A stretch of 20,712 bases of DNA, taken from IMG/VR virus record IMGVR_UViG_3300007345_003061, positions 1-20,712 of that record. One strand, given 5' to 3'. The notes under the pieces were generated by a model. It was not told the DNA's origin. It ran no database searches and worked only from the letters and a program-made list of their open reading frames with translations. Positions 1,595 to 20,712 of this stretch are shown here, in pieces. The translations under genes and the position numbers were made by a program. Source of the stretch: a virus. Position 1 is the stretch's first letter. Every line of letters starts with the position of its first letter.

Positions 1595-1646
1595 GGTAAC
1601 CGACAAAACGCATATGCATCTTTTTTGGGTAACCGACAAAATGCAT
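1595..1646. repeat. Two-copy 19-bp direct repeat, period 33 bp
   Basis: GGTAACCGACAAAACGCAT at 1595-1613 recurs at 1628-1646 with one mismatch (C to T). The copies start 33 bp apart, about three helical turns, and are separated by a stretch with GCATATGC and TTTTTT. The second copy reaches the stop codon of the minus-strand gene. I see no other full copy in the window. It could be a protein-binding site, a phage promoter pair or packaging-related; the sequence alone does not decide. Confidence 0.6.
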
Positions 1647-2050
1647 CAGTGCCGTGGTTGCGCCTGATCCGATGCAGCTTGATCTAATAGCTCTTGCAGT
1701 TCCTCATCAGATAAATCTTCAGCCTGTATTTCTACATTGGTCTGATCAATACGTGCAAGCTTAGGTGCTTCAAACTCTGCAAGAGTCTTTGCAATCTCTA
1801 ATGCTGTATCAAGATCATCTTTTGCTACTGCTTTAATCATCATAACTTTAAGAACATCTATAGATGTCATATCTGTTGAATCAAGAACATCTGTTTTATA
1901 CAGCTTCCATTCAGCCATAGACATCTTAGCAGCTTCACGAGCCTCTTTGTTAGCCTTACGTGTTGCTACACCTTTCTTTTGGGCTTCTCTAGCAGACTCA
2001 GTAGTCCACCCATCAGCAAGGTTTTTCAAACTCTTTTTATTAAAAGGCAT
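1646..2050 (-). CDS. Putative terminase small subunit (DNA packaging)
   Basis: A 134-residue product when started at ATG 2050 (MPFNKKSL), which has GGAG five to ten bases upstream; an in-frame ATG at 2062 would add four residues but uses that Shine-Dalgarno as coding sequence. The N-terminal half is very basic (EAQKKGVATRKANKEAREAAK), consistent with DNA binding. The C-terminal half carries a run of features common in phage TerS proteins: a helical IDVLKVMMIKAVAKDDL, then ALEIAKTLAEFEAPKLARID and an acidic LSDEELQELLDQ end that normally contacts the large subunit. It is a single minus-strand gene isolated among + strand genes. The call rests on remembered family character, not a search; a transcription regulator is the main alternative. 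Confidence 0.55.
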   Translation of the reverse strand: MPFNKKSLKNLADGWTTESAREAQKKGVATRKANKEAREAAKMSMAEWKLYKTDVLDSTDMTSIDVLKVMMIKAVAKDDLDTALEIAKTLAEFEAPKLARIDQTNVEIQAEDLSDEELQELLDQAASDQAQPRH

Positions 2051-2068
2051 TGTCTTCTCCATAAATTC

Positions 2069-2090
2069 TATATACCCCTTATAGGTATAT
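2069..2090 (-). promoter_or_regulatory. Minus-strand arm of a divergent promoter/operator
   Basis: Read on the minus strand, CTATAAGGGGTATATA lies about 20 bases before the start of the putative terminase gene. The same 16 bases occur in the opposite orientation at 2134-2149. The CTATAAGGG core resembles the initiation end of T7-family promoters (CTATAGGG), so this may be a promoter for the phage's own RNA polymerase; bases further upstream are poorly conserved between the arms, which also fits a dyad operator. Confidence 0.45.
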
Positions 2091-2120: not shown

Positions 2121-2149
2121 ATAAGGTATAATTCTATAAGGGGTATATA
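2121..2149 (+). promoter_or_regulatory. Plus-strand arm of a divergent promoter/operator upstream of the MazG-like gene
   Basis: CTATAAGGGGTATATA at 2134-2149 is the exact reverse complement of 2069-2084. If transcription starts at the G run (about 2140), the leader before ATG 2158 would be only about 18 bases. The element also holds a perfect TATAAT at 2127-2132, usable as a host sigma-70 -10 box, although I see no good -35. Either way this is the likely start of the replication operon. Confidence 0.5.
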
Positions 2150-2942: not shown

Positions 2943-3097
2943 AACAAGACAGAAACAAATTAGATCACATAACAGATAAACCATTTAAAAAAGTAACATG
3001 TATAATGTGTAACAAAACCTTTTCCACTATGGCTATTGATAACCGATCTAAAATCTGTCCCAAATGCGACATAGAGAAAGTAGAAAACAGTGAATGA
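2939..3097 (+). CDS. 52-residue zinc-ribbon protein
   Basis: Found by translating the gap before the HNH gene. ATG 2939 overlaps the preceding TGA (ATGA), and the frame ends at TGA 3095-3097. The product has two CxxC pairs, CIMC at residues 21-24 and CPKC at 40-43, the classic small zinc-ribbon layout, with a basic N-terminus (MKQDRNKLD). Such mini zinc fingers in phages often bind nucleic acid or a protein partner. It overlaps the next gene's GTG start by 8 bases. Reality is supported by the cysteine pattern and tight packing; function is inferred only at fold level. Confidence 0.65.
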   Translation: MKQDRNKLDHITDKPFKKVTCIMCNKTFSTMAIDNRSKICPKCDIEKVENSE

Positions 3098-3392
3098 AGA
3101 CGTAAGTAAAACAGTACTAAAAATCAGAAGACGTAGAGAAATACTAGACCGTTACAAAATAAGTAAAGGTTGCATTGACTGTGGTTACAACAATAACCCC
3201 TATGCTCTTCAATGGGATCACAGAGATCCATCAGATAAAATATTCACACCTCATCGAATGGCTTCTTACAGTATTAAGAACATCATCCTTGAGGCCCGTA
3301 AGTGCGACATCCGTTGCGCTAACTGTCACACAATCAGGTCAGTGAAAGAAAAACACTACCTAGAAAGAAAAGTTTATGAAACTAGTATATGA
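3090..3392 (+). CDS. HNH endonuclease
   Basis: A 100-residue product with a GTG start at 3090 overlapping the zinc-ribbon gene. It shows a compact HNH layout: CIDC at residues 28-31, the catalytic-type DH at 43-44 in ALQWDHRDP, and CANCH at 76-80, so two CxxC pairs form the structural zinc site. The basic N-terminus (KIRRRR) fits DNA binding. Small HNH proteins in phages are either free-standing homing endonucleases or packaging/replication nucleases. Its position, overlapping the DNA polymerase gene by 17 bases, is typical of the mobile free-standing type, but no sign of recent insertion is visible. Confidence 0.8.
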   Translation: MNEDVSKTVLKIRRRREILDRYKISKGCIDCGYNNNPYALQWDHRDPSDKIFTPHRMASYSIKNIILEARKCDIRCANCHTIRSVKEKHYLERKVYETSI

Positions 3393-8857: not shown

Positions 8858-11176
8858 ATGAATCCATTCGATCAGATCTCAGAGTACCTGATAGATAAAG
8901 TCTCAAGGGTTAATCCAAATAACCCTAAGGCTAACTCAGGTGGTGTACTCTTGAGGTTATATAAAGAATACAAAGAAGATATGCCACGGCTAGTTGCTGT
9001 AGCATTTCAAACAATACAAATGAGATTCACCTACGATACCTCCGATAGTCCTGCAGGGACTGCACAGTTAACTGCTGTATCCACAGCAATAGGACAACGT
9101 GTAGCACGTGTAATAAAAAGAGAACCCCCTGGGTTACCCTGGAATATGCATGTAAGACTAGGTGATCTCTTCATTGAAGCTTTCTTTAACTGTGGATATA
9201 TTAACTTGTACTACCCCAAGACAAGGGATACTAGTTATATTGTATCAGCTACAGCTAAATGGATTGACCTAGCAGATATCCCTGAGGCACTATCAAGGAT
9301 CTCTTTGAATCACACAGTACTAGAAAGACCAGAAAGAATAACAAAGGTTACACAACCAGATGGTGAACCCCTAATCAAGAACTGGACAGAAGAGGACAAC
9401 GATGAGTTCCGTACAATGATAGGGCAACCTTGGATTAAAGCAGTGGATAATCTACAAAGGACAGGTTGGCGTATTAACCAACGTGTCTACGATGCTTTAA
9501 TGGACAACAAAGATTCTTTTGTTTCATCTGTACCCATCGAAGATAACGATGCTAAGGAAATGAAACGTAGAAGTAAGAATGTTGAGTGGGGTTTCATCAC
9601 TACGAAAGCCAAGCTTCTGTATGAACATGATGTGTTCTATCAATACATGCAAGCCGACTATCGTGGTAGGCTTTATTACTCAGAGTCTTTCTTAAACTAC
9701 CAGGGATCTGATCTTGCCAGGGGTATGATGTCTTTTGCCAGGGGTAAACCTATGACAGAAGATGGTCTCTTCTGGTTAGCTGTGCACACAGCAAGTAGTT
9801 TTAATCAAAGCTACAACATTGATGAGCTACCTGAGTGGTGTGAGGGTGAATACCAAAAGTACCTACAAGAAGAAGGCTTAGAGTCTATCAGTGTAGATAA
9901 GTTTACACTAGAGGATAGAGTGCGCTGGACTAATGACAACATGAATATCCTAATTGAAATGGGTAGAGAATCTATCATTGCTGATATTGCAGAGAAACCA
10001 GTATCGTTTCTTGCTTGCTGCTTTGAATGGTACGACTATCAAAAGGCAGTCAAAGATAATAGAATCTACATAAGCCACCTTCCAGTGCCCGTAGACGGGT
10101 CTAACAATGGTTGGCAGCATCTAGGTGCTATTTCTAAAGACAGCCACACAGGGAGGCTTGTAGGCCTTGTACCAGTAGATATACAATATGACTTCTATGT
10201 TCAGACTGCGAAGCAATTGTATAACCTTGTCACTGATGATCGTCTTAAAGGTATCTTAGATAAGATGCCAATGAAACACATCAGAAAAGGTATATCTAAA
10301 CGTGGGAGTATGACAAGAGCATACTCTGCAGGTGCTAGGAAGATTGCTGAAAATATGTTCTTTGATTGTAAGACAGAAGACTTCCATCTTACTTATGGTA
10401 TAACACAAGATGACTGTGATAAGTTATCTAAGTTACTAATCAAAGCAATCAACATGGTATGCCCAGGTCCTTTACACACTATGGCATTCTTACAAAAGAT
10501 TGCACAGTATGAGATCGGTGAGTACAAAAAGTTCTGTCCCAATGGAGATGTTGCTGGACCTGAATACAAGCAACTAGTCAAGGATCAGAAAGAACTATAT
10601 ACTAAGAAAGATAAAACAGATGAAGAGATTGAAGAGTTAAACAATCTAACTGTCGAGTTAAAATCTTTCAAGAGTAAGCTCATCTATGGTAACGGTAGAG
10701 ATAAACTTACATGGGTAACACCTTCAGGGTTTAAAGTAACCTATGAAAACTTTACAACAGCTACACGTAAATGTAGAGGTACCATAAGTGGATACAAGAC
10801 TGACTCTAAGGGACACAAAGGAGTAAACCATGTGGCAAGAGTACCTACGAAGACCCCAGATATTCGCGGATTTATGTGCGGTGTCAGCCCTAACTACATT
10901 CACAGTCAAGATGCAAGCCACATGGCATTGGTTATTGAGGACTGGAATGGTGACTTCGGAGCAGTGCATGATTCCTTTAGTACTCATGCATGTGATGTCG
11001 AAGAGTTACTAACAAAGACAAAGAAAACATTTATCGATATGTACGATAAAAGAAATTACTATGACTTAATTCAAGACAACATCATCACTGATGCTACTAA
11101 CCTTGACGTTGAGCAACCACAACTAGGTGATCTAGATGTAACACAGATCTATGAGTCTGATTACTTCTTTGCCTAA
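8858..11176 (+). CDS. T7-like single-subunit DNA-directed RNA polymerase
   Basis: The start at ATG 8858 (MNPFDQIS) is chosen for AGAGGA about 6 bases upstream; the longer frame from 8822 begins inside thyX. The 772-residue product has DYRGR (D267, R271), motif A VDGSNNGWQH (D413), motif B KRGSMTRAYS (K481, Y489) and motif C VHDSF (H704, D705), preceded by IHSQDASHMA. It ends in ESDYFFA, mirroring the T7 C-terminal foot ESDFAFA. It is shorter than T7 RNAP (883), mostly in the N-terminal promoter-binding part. It should transcribe middle/late genes from phage-specific promoters. Its position after the replication genes, rather than before them as in T7, recalls phiKMV-type order. Confidence 0.96.
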   Translation: MNPFDQISEYLIDKVSRVNPNNPKANSGGVLLRLYKEYKEDMPRLVAVAFQTIQMRFTYDTSDSPAGTAQLTAVSTAIGQRVARVIKREPPGLPWNMHVRLGDLFIEAFFNCGYINLYYPKTRDTSYIVSATAKWIDLADIPEALSRISLNHTVLERPERITKVTQPDGEPLIKNWTEEDNDEFRTMIGQPWIKAVDNLQRTGWRINQRVYDALMDNKDSFVSSVPIEDNDAKEMKRRSKNVEWGFITTKAKLLYEHDVFYQYMQADYRGRLYYSESFLNYQGSDLARGMMSFARGKPMTEDGLFWLAVHTASSFNQSYNIDELPEWCEGEYQKYLQEEGLESISVDKFTLEDRVRWTNDNMNILIEMGRESIIADIAEKPVSFLACCFEWYDYQKAVKDNRIYISHLPVPVDGSNNGWQHLGAISKDSHTGRLVGLVPVDIQYDFYVQTAKQLYNLVTDDRLKGILDKMPMKHIRKGISKRGSMTRAYSAGARKIAENMFFDCKTEDFHLTYGITQDDCDKLSKLLIKAINMVCPGPLHTMAFLQKIAQYEIGEYKKFCPNGDVAGPEYKQLVKDQKELYTKKDKTDEEIEELNNLTVELKSFKSKLIYGNGRDKLTWVTPSGFKVTYENFTTATRKCRGTISGYKTDSKGHKGVNHVARVPTKTPDIRGFMCGVSPNYIHSQDASHMALVIEDWNGDFGAVHDSFSTHACDVEELLTKTKKTFIDMYDKRNYYDLIQDNIITDATNLDVEQPQLGDLDVTQIYESDYFFA

Positions 11177-11186
11177 GGAGATAACA

Positions 11187-11435
11187 ATGAGCGATAAGAA
11201 ATCGTATAACTACTTGGCTCTGCGTGGAGCACCAGTAGATGACATGGAATATGTAGAACAGTTTGGTTTATCACCAGACTCTGCATACTCAAATAAGATT
11301 AACGAAGACATGCTACAGTATAACTATGATAAAGCAGTTCAACGAGGTATGGAACCTAAAGAAGCTGAACAAATAAAGAAAGATGCTGAGCGTGATATCA
11401 GAGAGCTGCTGGCTAAAAACGGTATGCTTAAATAA
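11187..11435 (+). CDS. Small hypothetical protein at the end of the replication operon
   Basis: The start at ATG 11187 (MSDKKSYNYLAL) has AAGGAG with 7 bases spacing; the frame extension to 11151 lies inside the RNA polymerase gene and is rejected. The 82-residue product is helical and charged, with a C-terminal amphipathic helix (EAEQIKKDAERDIRELLAKNG). It follows the polymerase stop by ten bases and is followed at once by the convergent terminator, so it is the last + strand gene. No family recognised; a small partner or inhibitor of the polymerase is a guess only. Confidence 0.65.
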   Translation: MSDKKSYNYLALRGAPVDDMEYVEQFGLSPDSAYSNKINEDMLQYNYDKAVQRGMEPKEAEQIKKDAERDIRELLAKNGMLK

Positions 11436-11440
11436 AAAAG

Positions 11441-11487
11441 CCCCTACTAGTTTCCTTAATTGGATTCTAGTAGGGGTATTTTTTTTT
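11441..11487. terminator. Convergent bidirectional intrinsic terminator
   Basis: CCCCTACTAG (11441-11450) pairs perfectly with CTAGTAGGGG (11467-11476); the 16-base loop can add a short TCC/GGA inner pairing. A run of T follows on the + strand (11479-11487), and AAAAAA before the stem gives a T run on the minus strand. It separates the + strand replication operon from the minus-strand virion operon, both ending here. Confidence 0.9.
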
Positions 11488-11490
11488 ATT

Positions 11491-14400
11491 CTAGTGAGAG
11501 TAGTACTGAAGTACTGCTAAGTCTGGATCATTACTATTAACGTTAGCCATAATCTTTGACTTTAGTTTAGATCTTAATGCTTCAGTCTTAGATATGAATT
11601 GATCTAACTTATTAAGACCTATGCTTTTTTCAAGAGCTTCTATAAATATTTGAAGATCCTTTACTGTTAAAGTTGTAGAGGGTTCAATAATGTTAATACC
11701 TTTTGGTCCACTTGAAAAACCTCTAAACCCTTTATTTGTCATAGCAGATTGTAAAGATTTAACCTCTTTAAAAATATCATCAGGTACCGGATACATAACC
11801 TGTCCCAGTTTATTGTTGATATTTAACACAGGGTTACCCTCTTTACTTATGTAAGTTGAAAAGAGGTAATCCATCATAGCTCTTTCATTACCTAACAGTA
11901 CTTGATTCGGATTCTTAAACCTTTCATTTAACGACTGCTTTAGTTTGTTTAAAGAGTTTTGTGTTTGCTTTAAGTAAGACCACTGAAAATTAATATCTAC
12001 CCATGCCTTGTTAACGTCTTTAAGAACAGCGTCATACGAAGCAGCATCCATTTTAAATGCATCATAGATAGGGAACACATATGGTTGTTGCTTAGGATTC
12101 TGTGATCTTTGTCTAATATCTTTCCAATAACCACCCTTGTCAGATGCTAACCTTGCTACTGTTGCAGCATCGATTGACTGTACAGGGATAGGTATTGCAG
12201 CACCCCAAGATGATCCACCTACTTCAGTAGATTGTTCACCTGTTATAGGATCAGTTCTAAATTTAGGAGCAGCAGATGTAGCTTCTTCACCGTACACTTG
12301 GGACTTTGGTGTTGTTAGTTTTCCATCAACAAAAATCTTTATAGGAGTAGCTTCACCTTTCTTAGCACCAGTGGTCATCATACCACCCATATTAAGCTTG
12401 GAACCTGTTGGTCCATTAATAGTGAACAACTCATTTGCTATAGAGTGTAAAAACGCAGCACCTCTCATAATATTACGAGACTGCATCGTCTCTTCACCAA
12501 GTACTTCTTTTAATGCAGAATCATAATGTGAATGTATAGCGTCAATTAATTGTTGCTTAGGGTTAAACTGATCCGATGCTGTTTGAGAAGACTTACTGTT
12601 ATAAATTGACATCAAGTCATTAAGACGTTGAGACTCAGGAGTACCCTGACCTTGCATTACTAACATAAATTCTTCAATGTCGGATTTAAAACCAGCAGCA
12701 TTCTTTCCATAACCGAATGTCATGGATGTGGTTTTATTCAAACCCCTATTACCATAGACAATCTGAGCTATCTCGTACACTTCAGGCCACTCATCTCTTG
12801 GGAACGCTTCATACTCACTATTTACTGATAGGTCTATGAGAGTATTCTCAAGTACATCTCGTATGTCTTGATCATCGTCAAGAAAGAAAGGGCTAGTTCC
12901 ACTACGGATTACACCAGTTCTTCTAGCAGTTTCCATGTTACCAAGCTGCATACCATTACCAGCAATACCATTAGTTTTACCATCTATGTATGCATTAAAG
13001 TATGTATGATATGGTTTACCAGCATCCATAGCTTCTTTATAATTAGCAAAGTCTATAAGCCCATCGATATAAGCTTGACCATCTTCACCTTTCTTTTGAA
13101 TCTCTGCCATAAGGATTGCATCTGATTCGTTATTAGGATCAAGTTGTAATGCTGGCATCTGTGGAAAGTTAGGATCACTCAAAGGCATACCTGCAGCAAT
13201 AGCATCAGCTACTTTTTCAACTTGACTATCAGAGATTGCAGCTAAAGCAGTACGAAGTCTAACACCTTTATTATATAAAGACCCTTCTGCATCTGTAAGA
13301 GCTTTTTCTCTAGCCGAAGGAACCAAGGCATCTGCACCTTTGACTAAAGCCATAGCATACATTTGTCTAAGAGCCTTATCAAACCTAGATCCTTTATTAA
13401 TCATTGTTGGTACAGCACTACGAGTAACAAACCGAACAGACTTTTTAGTTGTTGGATCAAAGTTTGTTTGTTGTACAGCAATACGACCTGTTGCACCTTG
13501 TAGATAAAACGTAAGATAGTTTGCACCCTTTCGATCAAGAGCTATACCATACAGTGCTTGAGCTAAATCATTCTCGATTGCTCTCATACTATCATTTGGA
13601 TCAGGGATAATCCTTCGTCCTTGAGACTGAGCAATCTTTTGTCTAGCTACAAACTCATTCATCTTATCTTCACCAATATGATTAATGGATCTATAAGGGT
13701 TGTTTGGGGAACTCAATGCTGGCAAAGCAGTGGCTAACAAAATCTTTAAACGTTGTGGGTCAACGACATGAGCCACCTGAGAATAGTTTCTCATAGCTTC
13801 ATTAAGTTCTGCAGCAGCTACAGCATCTCCAGGAACAAAGACTCTTTGAGTAACACTTCTTGTTATTCTACCTAGCTCACCACCTAACATACCGTCTACT
13901 GGTGGTGTCTTTAATGGACGAACATGGTCTTTGGGTAGTAGTTTCTTACGAAGGGTATTACCTTGTCTTAGAAGAGAAGAGCCAGTATCAGTTACTTCAA
14001 ACATAACCTGCTCACCCTGAACATTAGCGTCTGGTGTTTGTCTATTAAGAAAAACATTTTTACCATACTGCCTATTCATCCCTTGGTAATATAGTTCTTT
14101 TGCTATATCACCTAGTAAGAAAGCATCATCAGGAGACAGATCAGTATAAGCATCAGTGGGTTTCTGTTGCTGCTCATTAATAATCCTTTGGTGTGCTCTG
14201 TGTATTTCTTGACCAAGCCTACGGTTACCATCAGCCTTAGAGAAAGCACCAGTACCCATGAGTTGATCATCGGTAACCTGATCCATCGGATCAAACTGAC
14301 CCTCTTCATTCTTACCAAAAGAAGTTTGAGACAGAGCGTCTTCAGTAACATACGTCAATACCTTAGCAAACAATGGGGTCATTCTTGGTTTCCCAGAATC

Positions 14401-14961
14401 ATTATTACCACCATCAAGAGCATTGGTATTGTTTAACAAAGAGTTAAGTTTATTGTCTTGATCTGCAGCAGCTGTAGTACCACCGAGATATATAGCACCT
14501 GATGCAACATCTTCAGCTAACCTTGCTGCTCTTCCTTCAATGTCACCGTTAGGCATAGCGTTAGAGGAACCAACAGCATCGGGGTCTGGTTGTGTTTCAA
14601 ACGCTGACCAGTATGTAGATGCTTGTGGTTGGGTTCCCCTTGCTGCTTGAGTCATAGGTACTGCTGTTCTTGCAGGGTCTGGAGGACCAAACACTTCAGG
14701 CTCATCTTCAGTCACCTCTTCCACAACCCCTGCTGTTTCGGCAACCGTACTAGGCAAGGCTTCTGGAGAGGTCTCCACAGGAGCTTCTGTGACAGGCACT
14801 ACAGGTTCTACTGGTGGGGTAGTAACCTCAGGGGCTTCAGGGGATGCTGGCGGGGTTGTATCCCCCGCTAACACCTCTTCAAATCCTAAAGCTAACTCTA
14901 ATTGTTCTGAAGGTAGTACTGCACCAGTGTCTAGACCTGATACATTAGATTTACCTGCCAT
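11491..14961 (-). CDS. Putative virion-associated single-subunit RNA polymerase (N4 vRNAP-like)
   Basis: The start is ATG 14961 (MAGKSNVSG), with AAAGGAG at ideal distance; the frame extension to 15033 lies inside the upstream gene. Of the 1156 residues, about 30-100 form a Pro/Glu/Thr/Val-rich linker. The core carries the ordered landmarks of the T7/N4 polymerase family: GATGRIAV (R493, TxxGR/DxxGR position), motif A IDGKTNGIAG (D660), motif B RGLNKTTSMTFGYGKNAAGF (R739, K743, Y751; the exact Rx3Kx7YG signature), IPVQSIDAATV (D931, equivalent to T7 VHSQDGSH) and motif C PIYDAF (D967). Spacings between D660, K743 and D967 (83, 224) fall close to T7 and N4 values. N4 vRNAP's polymerase core is about 1,100 residues, and it is packaged and ejected to transcribe early genes. 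The gene lies last in a virion-protein operon. The motif evidence is strong; virion location is inferred from context. Confidence 0.8.
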   Translation of the reverse strand: MAGKSNVSGLDTGAVLPSEQLELALGFEEVLAGDTTPPASPEAPEVTTPPVEPVVPVTEAPVETSPEALPSTVAETAGVVEEVTEDEPEVFGPPDPARTAVPMTQAARGTQPQASTYWSAFETQPDPDAVGSSNAMPNGDIEGRAARLAEDVASGAIYLGGTTAAADQDNKLNSLLNNTNALDGGNNDSGKPRMTPLFAKVLTYVTEDALSQTSFGKNEEGQFDPMDQVTDDQLMGTGAFSKADGNRRLGQEIHRAHQRIINEQQQKPTDAYTDLSPDDAFLLGDIAKELYYQGMNRQYGKNVFLNRQTPDANVQGEQVMFEVTDTGSSLLRQGNTLRKKLLPKDHVRPLKTPPVDGMLGGELGRITRSVTQRVFVPGDAVAAAELNEAMRNYSQVAHVVDPQRLKILLATALPALSSPNNPYRSINHIGEDKMNEFVARQKIAQSQGRRIIPDPNDSMRAIENDLAQALYGIALDRKGANYLTFYLQGATGRIAVQQTNFDPTTKKSVRFVTRSAVPTMINKGSRFDKALRQMYAMALVKGADALVPSAREKALTDAEGSLYNKGVRLRTALAAISDSQVEKVADAIAAGMPLSDPNFPQMPALQLDPNNESDAILMAEIQKKGEDGQAYIDGLIDFANYKEAMDAGKPYHTYFNAYIDGKTNGIAGNGMQLGNMETARRTGVIRSGTSPFFLDDDQDIRDVLENTLIDLSVNSEYEAFPRDEWPEVYEIAQIVYGNRGLNKTTSMTFGYGKNAAGFKSDIEEFMLVMQGQGTPESQRLNDLMSIYNSKSSQTASDQFNPKQQLIDAIHSHYDSALKEVLGEETMQSRNIMRGAAFLHSIANELFTINGPTGSKLNMGGMMTTGAKKGEATPIKIFVDGKLTTPKSQVYGEEATSAAPKFRTDPITGEQSTEVGGSSWGAAIPIPVQSIDAATVARLASDKGGYWKDIRQRSQNPKQQPYVFPIYDAFKMDAASYDAVLKDVNKAWVDINFQWSYLKQTQNSLNKLKQSLNERFKNPNQVLLGNERAMMDYLFSTYISKEGNPVLNINNKLGQVMYPVPDDIFKEVKSLQSAMTNKGFRGFSSGPKGINIIEPSTTLTVKDLQIFIEALEKSIGLNKLDQFISKTEALRSKLKSKIMANVNSNDPDLAVLQYYSH

Positions 14962-14962
14962 A

Positions 14963-17900
14963 TTATTCTCCTTTAAAATTCCATGAGTCTGGTGCAAAGT
15001 CTCCAATTCTTGAGAATCCACCAGTGACACCAACGGCAGGTATTAACCTACTACCTTCTTGTGCACCACCAGCAAAGTCCCCTGTTGCTACCTTACCAAC
15101 TGCTCTACCAATACGTTTTAATGTACCAGTAGCAGGTGCTTCACCTGTTGTTGTATTCCACAACCACTCTCCAGCATTACCAGAACGTTGTTCGTATATG
15201 GGGAAGAACTGATCAAGCACACGCTCACCAACACCAAGTAGACCTGATGAACGGATACCACGTTGGATATACTCTTCAGTCTCTAGGTGAGGGTTCTTAC
15301 CTGTCTTGTATTCGTCTTCATCCAAACCGCCATACTTAATGAGGTCCTTTAGATACTGAGAGGCAAAGCCCATCATAATCATAGTAGCCATGATAGCAAA
15401 TGCATTGTACTTCATTGCTGGAGTACCACGTTTTACATACTCACCCCACAGTTTAGGGATATGGTTTGCTGTAAATGTAGCAATGAATCCCTGGAACTGT
15501 GTAAACAAAAAGAACCTTGGGTCTTGATAGATCAATGGTCTGTTAGCTACCCCTGGGAGTGCTATAGCATCATCGATAAAGTTCATAGATCCAATTCTTA
15601 TATTGTCATTCATAAGTTTATCATCAGCTTCTATTTCTTGATTTGTTCTGTTATCAATACCAGTGGCATCTCTTTTTCTTGATTCGATAAACAACGTAAC
15701 CATGTCATCAACATTGATACCAATATTCCTTAAAGCTTCTTCTGACTGTTGAACCTCATTGGTTTTTACTTCACCGCTTGTTCTTTGATCAACAACAATA
15801 TTTACATGATCAAAAATATAATCAGCAGATATAGCTGCTCTCATAGAACGAGTCATGTTAGTAAAACCAGTAAGACCAGTAGCCTTGAAGAAGATTTCAT
15901 AGAACCTTTGATGTGATGGATTCATTTCTGAAACACCAGTCACTGTAGCTGCACCAAGTTCCCACGCATCATAACCTAGTTCTCTGCGTAAAGCTTGACC
16001 CCTAGATCTACTAGCAAAAGGAACACCTGTAGTTGGGTCAATGTTTCCTAACGCTTGTTCTCTACGTGTTATAACAGAGCCTGTTTGTTTTACAGCAGCA
16101 CCTAAAGCAGAAGCCAGTTCTTTACCAAAGTTCTGTAAGCTTGTATCATTTGAAGATGAACCTTTTCTTTTAAAGATCTGTTCAGCTGTTAAAGCACGAG
16201 AGGACAGTGCAAGTTCTGGAAGAGATGACACAGCAGCCATACCTAGTGTTCCAATAGTTGTAAGGAACATAAGGTTTTTCTGGATACCAATAAGCATTTT
16301 ACCCATGTCTGATGTCGGACGTTTGTAGTTCCCTGACTCAGCGTTTAGATAGTCTTTCATAAGCTTAGCTATACGATTAACTTCTGCAGCGGGAACACCC
16401 TCTGCTTGCATCTTATCTAAAAGGAAAGCAATCTTCTCACCATTCTTACCAATATAATCTCTATGTGCTGTAAATCTAGCAGCAGACTTAATAGAGTGCT
16501 GAATGTTCTTATAGATATCTTGTTCCATAAAGTCTTTAAACACAAGATTACCATCAGCATCCATCTTATCAGACATGCCAAGGGTATTACTTCTGTGTGA
16601 CCCAGGAACGATACCACCTTTAGTAACATCAAAACCTTTTACAAATTCAATACCTGCAACAGCACCAGCTTCATCAATGTCAGTAATAGTATCAGAGTTA
16701 AGTATCTCATCTACTAAAACCTTAGCATCTCCTGGACTAATTTGCGGATATGTCTGTACTAGTAAAGCCTCAAATGCATTACGGTTCTTTTGAACAGCAA
16801 CCTTATTTAAAGTTTTGTATCTATGTAAATAGTTTTTACGTTGACCAAGATCACCACCTGCTGCTATCTGATCATTATACATAGCATCTGCTGTCATGTT
16901 CATTTGTTTAGCAAGTGTATCAATTGCAGCCGCTTGTTGTGGGTTAAGTCCAGCAGTGTTTAAAAGATTAGAATCGTAATTCCCATCACTATCTACTGCT
17001 GCTTGTAGTCTTTTATAAATATCATCACTAAGAGTATCTATTTCTTTTTGACTTAAAACTTTTCCATTACCCATAACATTCCAAAAGTCATCAGGATTCT
17101 GTAACATATTTCTGTATATAGAAACACGATTACGTTTAGCCATTTCAAAATCAGCACCACTGAATACCTTTTGAAGTCCACCACCAAACTGTGCAGCTAA
17201 CTCTCTAGCTGAAGCAGATACTCTTTTTACTTCAGCAGGTATAATATAATCAATAGACCTTCTCCAAAGTGCAGGAGCCGAGGCAAACATTTCACCAATG
17301 GTTTCCCCAAGAGTTCTTTCAGATTTTGTTTTACGATGGGCTTCTGTTCGATCATCTAAATCTACAGGTTTATAATTAGAGTCAGCTTCTTTACGTTCAG
17401 CTAGTTCTTTATTACGTTCCTGTTGTTTTTCTTCAATAGACTTAACACGACTACCAGCTATACGGGCTTGCTCTGCAAACTCTTCAACTTGAATCATGTT
17501 TACAGTTTGACCTGCATCTAATTGTCGTTGTGTTTCTGCAGCCTTAGCTTCTTGATAAGCAATTTCACCATTAGCTTTACGCTCTGCTTCAGCCTGTGCT
17601 CCCTCTTCAGAAAGACGTTTGGCTTCTGCAGGTAACTGACGTACTGCTACATCAGCCCAAGCACCAGCATTAACTGCGGCCCCAGGAACTGCAAAGGCTG
17701 TACCTAAAGAAGTACCAGCTATTGAAGCAGCAATCATCCGATCAGTAAGTTCATTGTAATCAAAGACCTTATCAGAACCAAGGGTTGCTCCAAGGTAAGC
17801 AGTAGCTTCTTGCATAGCTTCAGTTGCACCTTCACCAGTGCCACCAATTAACCCACGTGTTGCAAGGTCTTTGAAAATAGCCTTACCTGTGATCTGTTGA

Positions 17901-19270
17901 CGAGCTACCTTAGCTGCATCTCCAGCAAACCCTGCGAGTTCCTTACGTGTTGCTGTAAGAAGTAATCTTTGAGCATCTCCTAGGTCCATACCTCTAGATG
18001 TTAACGCAGTTAAAGCATCCTTATACATAGCTTTAGGTGTAATGCCTTGTTTAAATATAAGATTAATACCAATCTTATCTAATGCAGCTTGAAGAACACC
18101 TGCACCAATTGCAACAGTAGCACTTTTATTATCACCCTCCATCTCTGACCATGTGTTACCAGTATATAAAGACACTGGTGCTAAGTAACTCAATCCCCCA
18201 GTTACTGGTGCAAGTAAAGCAGCACCACCAGATGCAGCCATATAGGGTAAAGACATTGCAGCATTGGTTCCTAAGAACTCAACGGCTGTCAGGAATCCAT
18301 CCACATCCTTGTAGTCTGTAATGATTTTACCGTTCTCACCCATACGGGTACGAGCACGTTCCATTCCTGCTTCACCAAAGTTTTCTGCAGCTTCCCAATC
18401 TATTTTTTCTCCAAGCATATCTGCAAGAGCATAAGCAGATTGAGCTACACTGTTCCATCCGGTTTCCCAAGCAACAGTCATAGGGTTGTTTGCACGACCA
18501 GTTACATCATCTCTATCGAAATAATCAATGTCGGGTTTAGCACTTTCATTAATAGCAGCCCTTTGTTTTTTAAGCATCTGGAGTCCTACAAGGTCTTGGT
18601 CTGTAGGTTGTTCTCCGCTTTTCCGCATTTCAGATAGTCCATCTTCAACCATCTTGATCTGCTCATCAAGCATACCAATCTCACCAGAAAACTTCTGTGC
18701 TCTTTTAAACTGTTGAGCAAACCTACGCTCTTCATCAACCCCTTCTTGTATCATCATCCGAGCTTTGTCAAACTCATTTGGTTGATATTCAGCAGAGGTT
18801 TGATCTGCTCTAGGTCCTTTTAGAAAATCTTGATAAGTTCTAGAACTACGTAGTATATTTCCTGGGTCAAAACCACTAGCAATATCTACGACACCATTGA
18901 TAGCAAGCTCACGAGAAAAAGATTTACCAGTTTCTGGATGAACAAGATCACCCATTTGACGACTCCCAGTGGCATCCATTTCTGGAGTACCATCTGGGTT
19001 AAATCGTCTACGTACTTCTGTATAACCAAGTTGATTAGCTAAAGATTGTACTTGTTCAGCTGTTTGCACAGCCCCAACTTCTTGTGAAGCACTTAAACCT
19101 TGCCATTCTTTGTACGTTTCAGGAGCATCTATACCACCGAAACGTACATCTAGATCGTTGCCTTCTTCACGGATAGTGTCTGCGTCTAAGAATGTAGTTT
19201 TATTCTTTGCACCCACTAGTTGGTTTGCATCACCACTAAGGATGTTAGCATAATCCGATACATCAAGCAT
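14963..19270 (-). CDS. Giant internal virion/ejection protein with N-terminal staphylococcal-nuclease-like domain
   Basis: The 1435-residue product starts at ATG 19270, with AAGGAG seven bases upstream. Residues about 24-130 look like a TNase domain: LDADT (D29, D31, T32), VRFGGIDAPE (R43, D48, E51), GSRQMGDLV (R104) and SRELAINGVV (E121), matching SNase D21, R35, D40, E43, R87 in order, with R43-E51 spacing identical. A charged helical region follows. Hydrophobic or Gly/Ala-rich segments near 335-375, 380-405, 512-537, 997-1020 and 1288-1308, and a GEGATEAMQE motif near 477, suggest membrane insertion, as for T7 gp15/gp16 that form the ejection channel. Residues about 545-640 are coiled coil. 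It sits between two other large virion-type genes. The T7 gp16 counterpart bears a transglycosylase; here the enzymatic cap appears to be a nuclease. Structural role by analogy. Confidence 0.75.
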   Translation of the reverse strand: MLDVSDYANILSGDANQLVGAKNKTTFLDADTIREEGNDLDVRFGGIDAPETYKEWQGLSASQEVGAVQTAEQVQSLANQLGYTEVRRRFNPDGTPEMDATGSRQMGDLVHPETGKSFSRELAINGVVDIASGFDPGNILRSSRTYQDFLKGPRADQTSAEYQPNEFDKARMMIQEGVDEERRFAQQFKRAQKFSGEIGMLDEQIKMVEDGLSEMRKSGEQPTDQDLVGLQMLKKQRAAINESAKPDIDYFDRDDVTGRANNPMTVAWETGWNSVAQSAYALADMLGEKIDWEAAENFGEAGMERARTRMGENGKIITDYKDVDGFLTAVEFLGTNAAMSLPYMAASGGAALLAPVTGGLSYLAPVSLYTGNTWSEMEGDNKSATVAIGAGVLQAALDKIGINLIFKQGITPKAMYKDALTALTSRGMDLGDAQRLLLTATRKELAGFAGDAAKVARQQITGKAIFKDLATRGLIGGTGEGATEAMQEATAYLGATLGSDKVFDYNELTDRMIAASIAGTSLGTAFAVPGAAVNAGAWADVAVRQLPAEAKRLSEEGAQAEAERKANGEIAYQEAKAAETQRQLDAGQTVNMIQVEEFAEQARIAGSRVKSIEEKQQERNKELAERKEADSNYKPVDLDDRTEAHRKTKSERTLGETIGEMFASAPALWRRSIDYIIPAEVKRVSASARELAAQFGGGLQKVFSGADFEMAKRNRVSIYRNMLQNPDDFWNVMGNGKVLSQKEIDTLSDDIYKRLQAAVDSDGNYDSNLLNTAGLNPQQAAAIDTLAKQMNMTADAMYNDQIAAGGDLGQRKNYLHRYKTLNKVAVQKNRNAFEALLVQTYPQISPGDAKVLVDEILNSDTITDIDEAGAVAGIEFVKGFDVTKGGIVPGSHRSNTLGMSDKMDADGNLVFKDFMEQDIYKNIQHSIKSAARFTAHRDYIGKNGEKIAFLLDKMQAEGVPAAEVNRIAKLMKDYLNAESGNYKRPTSDMGKMLIGIQKNLMFLTTIGTLGMAAVSSLPELALSSRALTAEQIFKRKGSSSNDTSLQNFGKELASALGAAVKQTGSVITRREQALGNIDPTTGVPFASRSRGQALRRELGYDAWELGAATVTGVSEMNPSHQRFYEIFFKATGLTGFTNMTRSMRAAISADYIFDHVNIVVDQRTSGEVKTNEVQQSEEALRNIGINVDDMVTLFIESRKRDATGIDNRTNQEIEADDKLMNDNIRIGSMNFIDDAIALPGVANRPLIYQDPRFFLFTQFQGFIATFTANHIPKLWGEYVKRGTPAMKYNAFAIMATMIMMGFASQYLKDLIKYGGLDEDEYKTGKNPHLETEEYIQRGIRSSGLLGVGERVLDQFFPIYEQRSGNAGEWLWNTTTGEAPATGTLKRIGRAVGKVATGDFAGGAQEGSRLIPAVGVTGGFSRIGDFAPDSWNFKGE

Positions 19271-19281
19271 AGCAATACTCC

Positions 19282-20712
19282 TTATTGTTTAGGTTTGTTA
19301 AGTTCAGCATGTAATGCCTGGGCTGTGTCCATCATGTACTTATAAAAGCCAGATTCACCAGCACTCTTTTCAGCACTGTCATTATATTTCTTTCTTAAAG
19401 TACGACCATCTTCAGTGGAATCTAACTTGTTCCATTTTTGAATAGCAATATTTATAATATCTCCACGATCAGTACTAGAGTTTGGAATACCTGAGATAAC
19501 AGTATCAAGGTTTTGATAAAGCAAACTCATTTTATCTGCTTGTACATATTTTGGAGTTGCCTTTTTGTTCATTACAGCATCTTCATTAATGATAAACAAC
19601 TCTGGAGCACCTGTGGTTTCTCTTAGCTGTTGATCTTCTAAAAACCTAGTAAAGTCATTAGGTGTATACTTAATGTCTTTACCTGCAGCTTCTGCAACCA
19701 TAGTTTCATATGCTTGAGTCATAACCTTACGACCAGCTGTAGAGTCTGGGTCAACCCCTTGCTTTTTGGCCCAATCATAATACGCTAATGCTGCTTCCTT
19801 AGGGCCAACACTAACAATGTACTCTTTATCTTTACCTTCACCTTTAAAGTTTCCAGGTTTATCTCTAATTTCTGAGAAGTAACCTTCCATGTCACCAAGG
19901 ATTCTACTACGTCTTTGCTTATAAGCTTCAGTATTAGCATCAAGTTCTTCACGATAATCATTAAGACTTGAAACCTGTGCAGGATGCATTACAGCACCAC
20001 TACGTGATTGGTAATGTGTGCCACCTGTAATACTATTCTTTACAGGAACTAAAGTTGCTTTCTTATAACCTGTAACTTGACCCTCTTTATTAAACTGAGG
20101 AACCATTTTAGTTATAGGGGCACCACCAGTTGGTGCATAAGTAGCACCTTTCTTTTCAAGGTCTGATATGTTTTTAGTTTTGTTATATAAGGCAATAGAT
20201 TTTGGCGTGTATGTTCCATCCTTTGTTAACTCTTGAACATACTTTTTATGTGCAGAAACTTTAGAGTCAACACGTTTAACATATTGTTTAGCAGCAAAGT
20301 TAAGAGAACCACTGTGAGAACCACCTAACATACGACCACCAACATACATAATAGCCATGCGTTTAAGCTCATCAGAATCAAACAAGTCACCAAAGATACC
20401 TGATAAGAAAGACTCTGCTTTGTTTATCTGTTCTGGTGGTGCTGTTTTACCTGCATCAGCTGCATCTTTTGGTTTTGTGCCTGGAGGAATAGTACCATCA
20501 TCTTTAGTTTTCTTAACAATATCTTCAGCAGTTTTTGTACTAGTAGAAGAATCTTTAGGAGGTACACCTTCAATAGTAGGTACAGCTGGATCTAATGCTT
20601 CAGTCTGATCATCCTTAACAAGCTCTTGGCTTTTACCTTCTAATCTTTTCTTTTTATCTTTAAGATCATCAGCATCTTTCTGAACCTTCTCAGCTTCTTT
20701 AGTTAATCCAAG
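19282..20712 (-). CDS. Large virion-type protein, N-terminus beyond the window
   Basis: The frame is open from the right edge to TAA at 19284-19282, giving 476 visible residues. A TTG at 20385 could be mistaken for a start, but 109 further in-frame codons with the same composition precede it and no start lies within the window, so the gene is partial. From the N-terminal side: a highly charged helix (KEAEKVQKDADDLKDKKKR), a Pro/Thr/Lys/Asp-rich linker of about 65 residues, ESFLSGIFGD, then a Gly-containing helix (MAIMYVGGRMLGG), and a mixed-charge C-terminal half ending in a helix. Downstream spacing to the nuclease-domain protein is 11 bases. Probably an internal core or tail-associated protein; no family recognised. 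Confidence 0.7.
   Translation of the reverse strand, partial: LGLTKEAEKVQKDADDLKDKKKRLEGKSQELVKDDQTEALDPAVPTIEGVPPKDSSTSTKTAEDIVKKTKDDGTIPPGTKPKDAADAGKTAPPEQINKAESFLSGIFGDLFDSDELKRMAIMYVGGRMLGGSHSGSLNFAAKQYVKRVDSKVSAHKKYVQELTKDGTYTPKSIALYNKTKNISDLEKKGATYAPTGGAPITKMVPQFNKEGQVTGYKKATLVPVKNSITGGTHYQSRSGAVMHPAQVSSLNDYREELDANTEAYKQRRSRILGDMEGYFSEIRDKPGNFKGEGKDKEYIVSVGPKEAALAYYDWAKKQGVDPDSTAGRKVMTQAYETMVAEAAGKDIKYTPNDFTRFLEDQQLRETTGAPELFIINEDAVMNKKATPKYVQADKMSLLYQNLDTVISGIPNSSTDRGDIINIAIQKWNKLDSTEDGRTLRKKYNDSAEKSAGESGFYKYMMDTAQALHAELNKPKQ

Follow-up and report, generated by a model that had tools for sequence, protein, structure and literature searches.

Phage N4, of the Schitoviridae, uses for its early genes a virion RNA polymerase (vRNAP), gp50, which is a three-domain protein of about 3,500 residues with HExxH in the C-terminal domain, and for its middle genes RNAPII, made up of gp15 and gp16. 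A packaged vRNAP is thereby already combined with an RNAPII (gp15 plus gp16) belonging to the T7 family, and the late genes of N4 are transcribed by the host RNA polymerase (RNAP) (PMC4496689). A survey from 2015 reported a two-subunit RNAPII in vRNAP phages, put two exceptions down to annotation, and inferred that vRNAPs arose before RNAPII was divided (PMC4496689). The Alteromonas phages V19 (OP751378) and R22Y also possess a large N4-like vRNAP (2,082–2,083 aa) and a second RNAP, two RNAP genes being reported for R22Y (PMC11705849). The DNA studied here, referred to as the window, is a 20.7-kb virus record (IMGVR_UViG_3300007345_003061, positions 1 to 20,712) and comes from a marine podovirus related to Roseobacter phage CRP-7. 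It encodes a T7-like RNAP of 772 aa and, convergent with it, a protein of 1156 aa predicted to be a compact member of the N4 vRNAP branch; these two single-subunit polymerases probably act at different stages of infection, the compact one packaged and early, and the T7-like one later.

A preliminary description of this DNA had reported both open reading frames, at the coordinates and lengths listed below, with convergent 3′ ends split by one small gene and a terminator, and had called the plus-strand product T7-like. All of this was borne out, and the region of convergence contains the following features.

8858..11176, plus strand: T7-like single-subunit RNA polymerase, 772 aa (Pfam, PHROG, PDB, CRP-7 gp30 similarity, tree)
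11151..11435, plus strand: small conserved gene, 94 aa, overlapping the 3′ end of the T7-like RNAP gene; weak similarity over 39 aa to CRP-7 gp32
about 11438..11482, both strands: bidirectional intrinsic terminator at the convergence point (fold -29.5 (+) / -25.2 (-) kcal/mol, z -7.0 / -6.4)
11491..14961, minus strand: compact N4-vRNAP-like single-subunit RNA polymerase, 1156 aa, without cysteine (profile, fold search, residue conservation)

The plus strand encodes, in order, MazG, DUF3310, a family-A DNA polymerase, an exonuclease, a RusA-like protein, a primase-helicase, ThyX and then the 772-aa protein. The latter matched Pfam PF00940 (RNA_pol) as a single chain (2.7e-54, 185 bits against a cut-off of 22), PHROG 414 (5.7e-102) and PDB chains of T7 RNAP (1e-32), matches that place it beyond doubt among the T7-like RNA polymerases. 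Its closest annotated relative was gp30 of CRP-7 (38% identity), and in the tree these two enzymes and two more contig groups formed a single clade (support 100/99) falling outside the sampled Autographiviridae, with several long branches. The single-chain PF00940 polymerase and the T7-like replication genes resemble those of T7 and the Autographiviridae, but here the RNAP gene lies at the end of the replication arm, the two arms are convergent and a second, vRNAP-like polymerase is encoded. A heterodimer of the Schitoviridae RNAP1 plus RNAP2 type was not found, a single PF00940 gene with an open frame of 777–829 codons being present in each of the 11 longer relatives. The product of the 94-aa gene matched no family in Pfam or PHROG.

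The 1156-aa protein had no match in Pfam, a weak one to PHROG 414 (7e-4), and none by BLAST against 50,697 phage records or in a sequence search of the PDB; missing BLAST and PDB matches were not read as missing homology, and small matches to VirB7 were dismissed as chance. Relatives were therefore gathered from IMG/VR into a diverse alignment for profile-profile comparison. The profile of this family matched the polymerase domains of 13 N4-type vRNAPs (E 4e-7 over 584 columns), the CRP-7-type neighbours (E about 1e-8) and T7-like RNAPs (E 1e-3), as against 0.09–0.3 for unrelated control families. In controls with shuffled columns and reversed profiles, the real profile-pair scores of 59.6, 67.8 and 37.6 stood against a maximum of 23–27 over 50 column shuffles, none of which came near. 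In the profile alignment, motifs A, B and C and the GR motif followed the same order as in N4 vRNAP, the aligned pairs (N4/1156-aa family) being VGRMQMLGKYNPQSAK/TGRIAVQQTNFDPTTKK, ADGVTNG/IDGKTNG, KRGIAKNPLTITIYG/NRGLNKTTSMTFGYG and KIFDG/PIYDA. The active-site residues were R493, D660 (motif A), R739, K743 and Y751 (motif B), and D967 (motif C), with zero substitutions in the clade A/L041 relatives covering them (13–15 sequences), which share 34–44% overall identity. An AlphaFold model built from 17 sequences reached a pLDDT of 69 and a pTM of 0.61, and one from 5 close sequences (pLDDT 38) was discarded. The top 50 PDB matches of the former in Foldseek were exclusively single-subunit RNA polymerases, the best being T7 (8dh3, 2.7e-12) and the N4 mini-vRNAP (3c3l, 4.3e-11), plus mitochondrial RNAPs, in keeping with a right-hand polymerase fold; among viral models, most matches carried an RNA polymerase annotation, and some entries without a name and Vibrio phage "coil containing" proteins also appeared.

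Because the profile match exceeds all shuffles, the active-site residues are invariant and the fold search returns polymerases, the 1156-aa protein is a true single-subunit RNA polymerase, as the preliminary description had held, and the catalytic residues are intact in both polymerases of the window. By profile it matches N4 vRNAP better than T7-like RNAPs (4e-7 vs 1e-3), while the structure search does not separate the two as its nearest relative. The label "N4-type" given to it earlier is thus apt insofar as N4 vRNAP is the closest named family by profile, but not as to size or BLAST-level similarity: the protein has 1156 aa against 3,500 and no HExxH motif, and the vRNAP-like lineage as a whole ranges from 1,156 to 1,474 aa.

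Some members of this lineage (L005:10001-13855, L003:10001-14026 and L025:3773-7927) carried, between motifs B and C, about 125 aa of inserted NADAR-like sequence, with scores below the Pfam cut-off for PF08719 (1e-4 in L025, 1e-3 in L003) and a match to PHROG 1017 (1e-8). Within a packaged polymerase, NADAR could counter an ADP-ribosylation defence. The 1156-aa protein of the window is without the insert.

On the minus strand, two further genes head to the same convergence point.

14963..19270, minus strand: cysteine-free virion/ejection protein, 1435 aa (PHROG 6958, virion structural protein, 1.3e-15)
19282..20712, minus strand: C-terminal part of a lysozyme-containing ejection protein, the gene running past the window edge (BLAST to L003/L005)

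The latter is assigned by relatives with a Phage_lysozyme domain (PF00959, 4e-33 in L003). The polymerase gene is the last of this late/virion arm, adjoining and downstream of the 1435-aa gene, and the two likely form one operon. Comparison with contig L010 revealed that the replication arm and the T7-like RNAP are 97% to 100% identical at most genes (99% for the DNA polymerase and the T7-like RNAP; 86% for ThyX), whereas the three cassette proteins are just 34%, 41% and 33% identical; the 97% DNA identity stops at nt 11509, by the bidirectional terminator. The polymerase gene therefore travels with those of the ejection proteins, the whole cassette (window 11491–20712) having been exchanged as a unit between otherwise near-identical phages. 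Cysteine, which makes up 1.5% of the T7-like RNAPs of the same phages, is absent from the 1156-aa protein and occurs 6 times in 44,269 aa over 40 members of the vRNAP-like family; the neighbouring ejection proteins have 0 or 1 (0 in the 1435-aa protein), and N4 gp50 has 0 in 3,500 residues. The position in the ejection operon, the exchange with the ejection cassette and the lack of cysteine, as in N4 gp50, are circumstantial evidence rather than proof that the 1156-aa polymerase is likely packaged in the virion.

The locus thus resembles N4 in encoding two polymerases of the single-subunit family, in placing a cysteine-free vRNAP gene last in a leftward late arm, after the ejection-protein genes and convergent with the early/middle arm, and in the profile similarity above. 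It differs in its compact vRNAP, in having a second polymerase of a single chain instead of two subunits, in genome size (about 58 kb for a complete relative) and in the absence of BLAST-level similarity to N4. V19 likewise pairs its 2,082-aa vRNAP with a single-chain RNAP of 670 aa; however, that vRNAP could not be significantly aligned with the compact family, to which it is unrelated by BLAST, and the single-chain enzyme is nearer to N4 RNAP2 (29% identity, 2e-12) and encoded close to where the early arm begins rather than at its end. The preliminary description had presented the pair as a T7/N4 hybrid. Two distinct polymerases are indeed encoded, but the contrast was overstated, since the N4 middle enzyme itself belongs to the T7 family and V19 and R22Y also carry a pair; the scheme is closest to that of N4, with an undivided middle enzyme. 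With these precedents, a packaged polymerase plus a T7-like one is not a new principle. What is new is the compact vRNAP lineage (1,156–1,474 vs 2,082–3,500 aa), the cassette exchange and the candidate promoter described below; the lineage is also set apart by its undivided canonical T7-like partner.

The pair is not peculiar to the window. Eighty viral contigs carrying the T7-like enzyme were found, and all 40 with enough flank (about 1.3 kb or more past the T7-like gene) had a convergent large gene in the same slot, so that the two polymerases co-occur in related genomes, a check proposed at the outset. Exactly one PF00940 match per genome was obtained in the 11 longer relatives, and the second polymerase is therefore invisible to standard annotation. 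CRP-7 (MK613349) has the same gene order, and its slot is occupied by gp33 (L006:17862-21566, minus strand), a cysteine-free protein of 1235 aa labelled hypothetical; in its treatment of RNA polymerases, the CRP-7 paper names the T7-like RNAP only (PMC6918029). The second polymerase of the CRP-7-type phages, which are described there as widespread in the sea (PMC6918029), has thus been overlooked as a hypothetical protein. Screening 85,000 species genomes of bacteria and archaea yielded one contig, in a Bacteroidetes metagenome-assembled genome, which is probably of viral origin and was binned into that assembly.

A 16-bp repeat, TATATACCCCTTATAG, occurs in exactly two copies in the window, divergently arranged.

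1646..2062, minus strand: TerS-like gene, similar to CRP-7 gp61, adjoining TerL
2069..2084, plus strand: promoter candidate TATATACCCCTTATAG, exact 16-mer, facing the MazG-DNA polymerase-RNAP arm
2134..2149, minus strand: second exact copy of TATATACCCCTTATAG, facing the TerS-like gene

In a relative whose ends show it to be complete (58,751 bp, with terminal repeats of 280 bp), six sites were found, counting the terminal-repeat site once: before TerL, after TerL, before a gene pair encoding 581 and 1416 aa, at TerS, at the MazG arm, and where the early arm begins. Across these phages the repeat precedes packaging, tail and replication operons. It is identical among phages whose vRNAPs are 34% alike and whose T7-like RNAPs are 84% to 99% alike, and in CRP-7, with its 38% identical T7-like RNAP, it is changed to TATAGTCCCCTATTA, which also occurs with 3 mismatches upstream of the CRP-7 T7-like RNAP gene. 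Since it stays constant across divergent vRNAPs and is altered where the T7-like RNAP differs, TATATACCCCTTATAG is a candidate promoter of the T7-like enzyme; if so used, this enzyme would serve structural as well as replication genes, unlike in N4. Alternatively, and compatibly with the remainder of the proposed programme, TATATACCCCTTATAG might be the promoter of the packaged enzyme, for it is present ahead of the early arm (minus strand of G001, 58444 and 51271) and its self-complementary TATA arms can pair around a C-rich centre, loosely like the hairpin promoters of N4. We regard this as unlikely: the repeat is unchanged where vRNAPs differ by at least 60%, follows the changes in the T7-like RNAP, and also precedes packaging and structural genes. 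The opposite orientation, CTATAAGGGG, is disfavoured by gene direction at same-strand sites (G001 22616, G002 49147). Another sequence, AACCGACAAAAYGCAT, also recurs, but at 3 mismatches its frequency is near chance.

In the proposed programme, the 1156-aa enzyme, a compact member of the N4 vRNAP branch, would be produced late, its gene coming last in the ejection-protein operon, would be loaded into the capsid and would leave through the tail along with the remaining cysteine-free ejection proteins. Once inside the next host it would transcribe the early/replication arm, including the gene for the T7-like RNAP, after which the 772-aa enzyme would use promoters of the TATATACCCCTTATAG type to transcribe both the replication arm and the structural arm. 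We infer the packaging and early role of the former, the promoter assignment to the latter and any independence from host RNAP. Several points weigh against this programme. The 1156-aa polymerase model is moderate, with a TM of about 0.4 to N4, and its encapsidation is predicted from sequence. TATATACCCCTTATAG also occurs at the start of the early arm, and the order of polymerase use is therefore not proven; no separate repeated (hairpin) motif that could be an early vRNAP promoter was found in the intergenic regions. In gp33 of CRP-7, the expected motif B lysine, at the position of the catalytic lysine of T7 RNAP, is an arginine, as it is in 14 of the 24 CRP-7-type vRNAP-like proteins covering the position, the other 10 having lysine. 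Finally, N4 late genes need the host RNAP, so that an analogous phage need not be host-independent.

The arginine in CRP-7 and part of its group would suit a different explanation, namely that the 1156-aa protein descends from an RNA polymerase but is now a non-catalytic ejection protein, host RNAP acting early as in T7 and the T7-like enzyme being the sole active phage polymerase. Its location among ejection-protein genes and its fast evolution also fit; yet catalytic residues invariant at such low identity in the window's own lineage are hard to explain without catalysis, and sigma-70-like sites are not enriched (34 vs 53.6 expected in the window, 55 vs 51.5 in L132), although these counts do not discriminate. 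This explanation thus appears quite improbable. That both enzymes are active and the vRNAP-like one is unpackaged, being made during infection for late genes or replication priming, is hardly probable, for, even if sequence by itself does not establish encapsidation, the gene ends the late/virion arm and is exchanged with those of the ejection proteins, and the lack of cysteine is common to ejection proteins and N4 gp50, not to cytoplasmic enzymes.

Two polymerases acting at different stages, as proposed here, may go further. It is conceivable, though we hold it only tentatively, that these phages run their entire transcription with their own enzymes, the packaged polymerase serving early and the T7-like one for replication and structural genes, with no host RNAP. 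If true, these phages would parallel, with single-subunit enzymes, the transcription scheme that phiKZ drives entirely by itself, and theirs could plausibly be the state from which the N4 programme arose, prior to the division of its second polymerase. CRP-7, cultured on RCA roseobacters, makes host-independent transcription testable. Independently of this, the lineage supplies polymerases of the vRNAP branch about one third of the length of N4 gp50, and its combination of a vRNAP-like enzyme and a T7-like RNAP that is undivided bears directly on the inference that vRNAPs predate the split RNAPII (PMC4496689).

Other elements were observed around the divergent promoter candidates. AACCGACAAAAYGCAT occurs as a tandem pair, with 33 bp between the copies, at nt 1598–1646, where the TerS-like gene has its 3′ end; relatives have copies too, and a strong terminator-like stem at nt 1546–1576 adjoins the pair. 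A conserved stem-loop, CGAGGACAAGCCTCG (nt 2085–2133, z -4.3), lies in the transcribed region common to both promoter candidates, and its closing pair shows a matched change in G002. Further downstream, and with no match in Pfam, nt 3090–3392 encode a small protein with a CxxC...H...CxxC pattern resembling that of HNH-type endonucleases.

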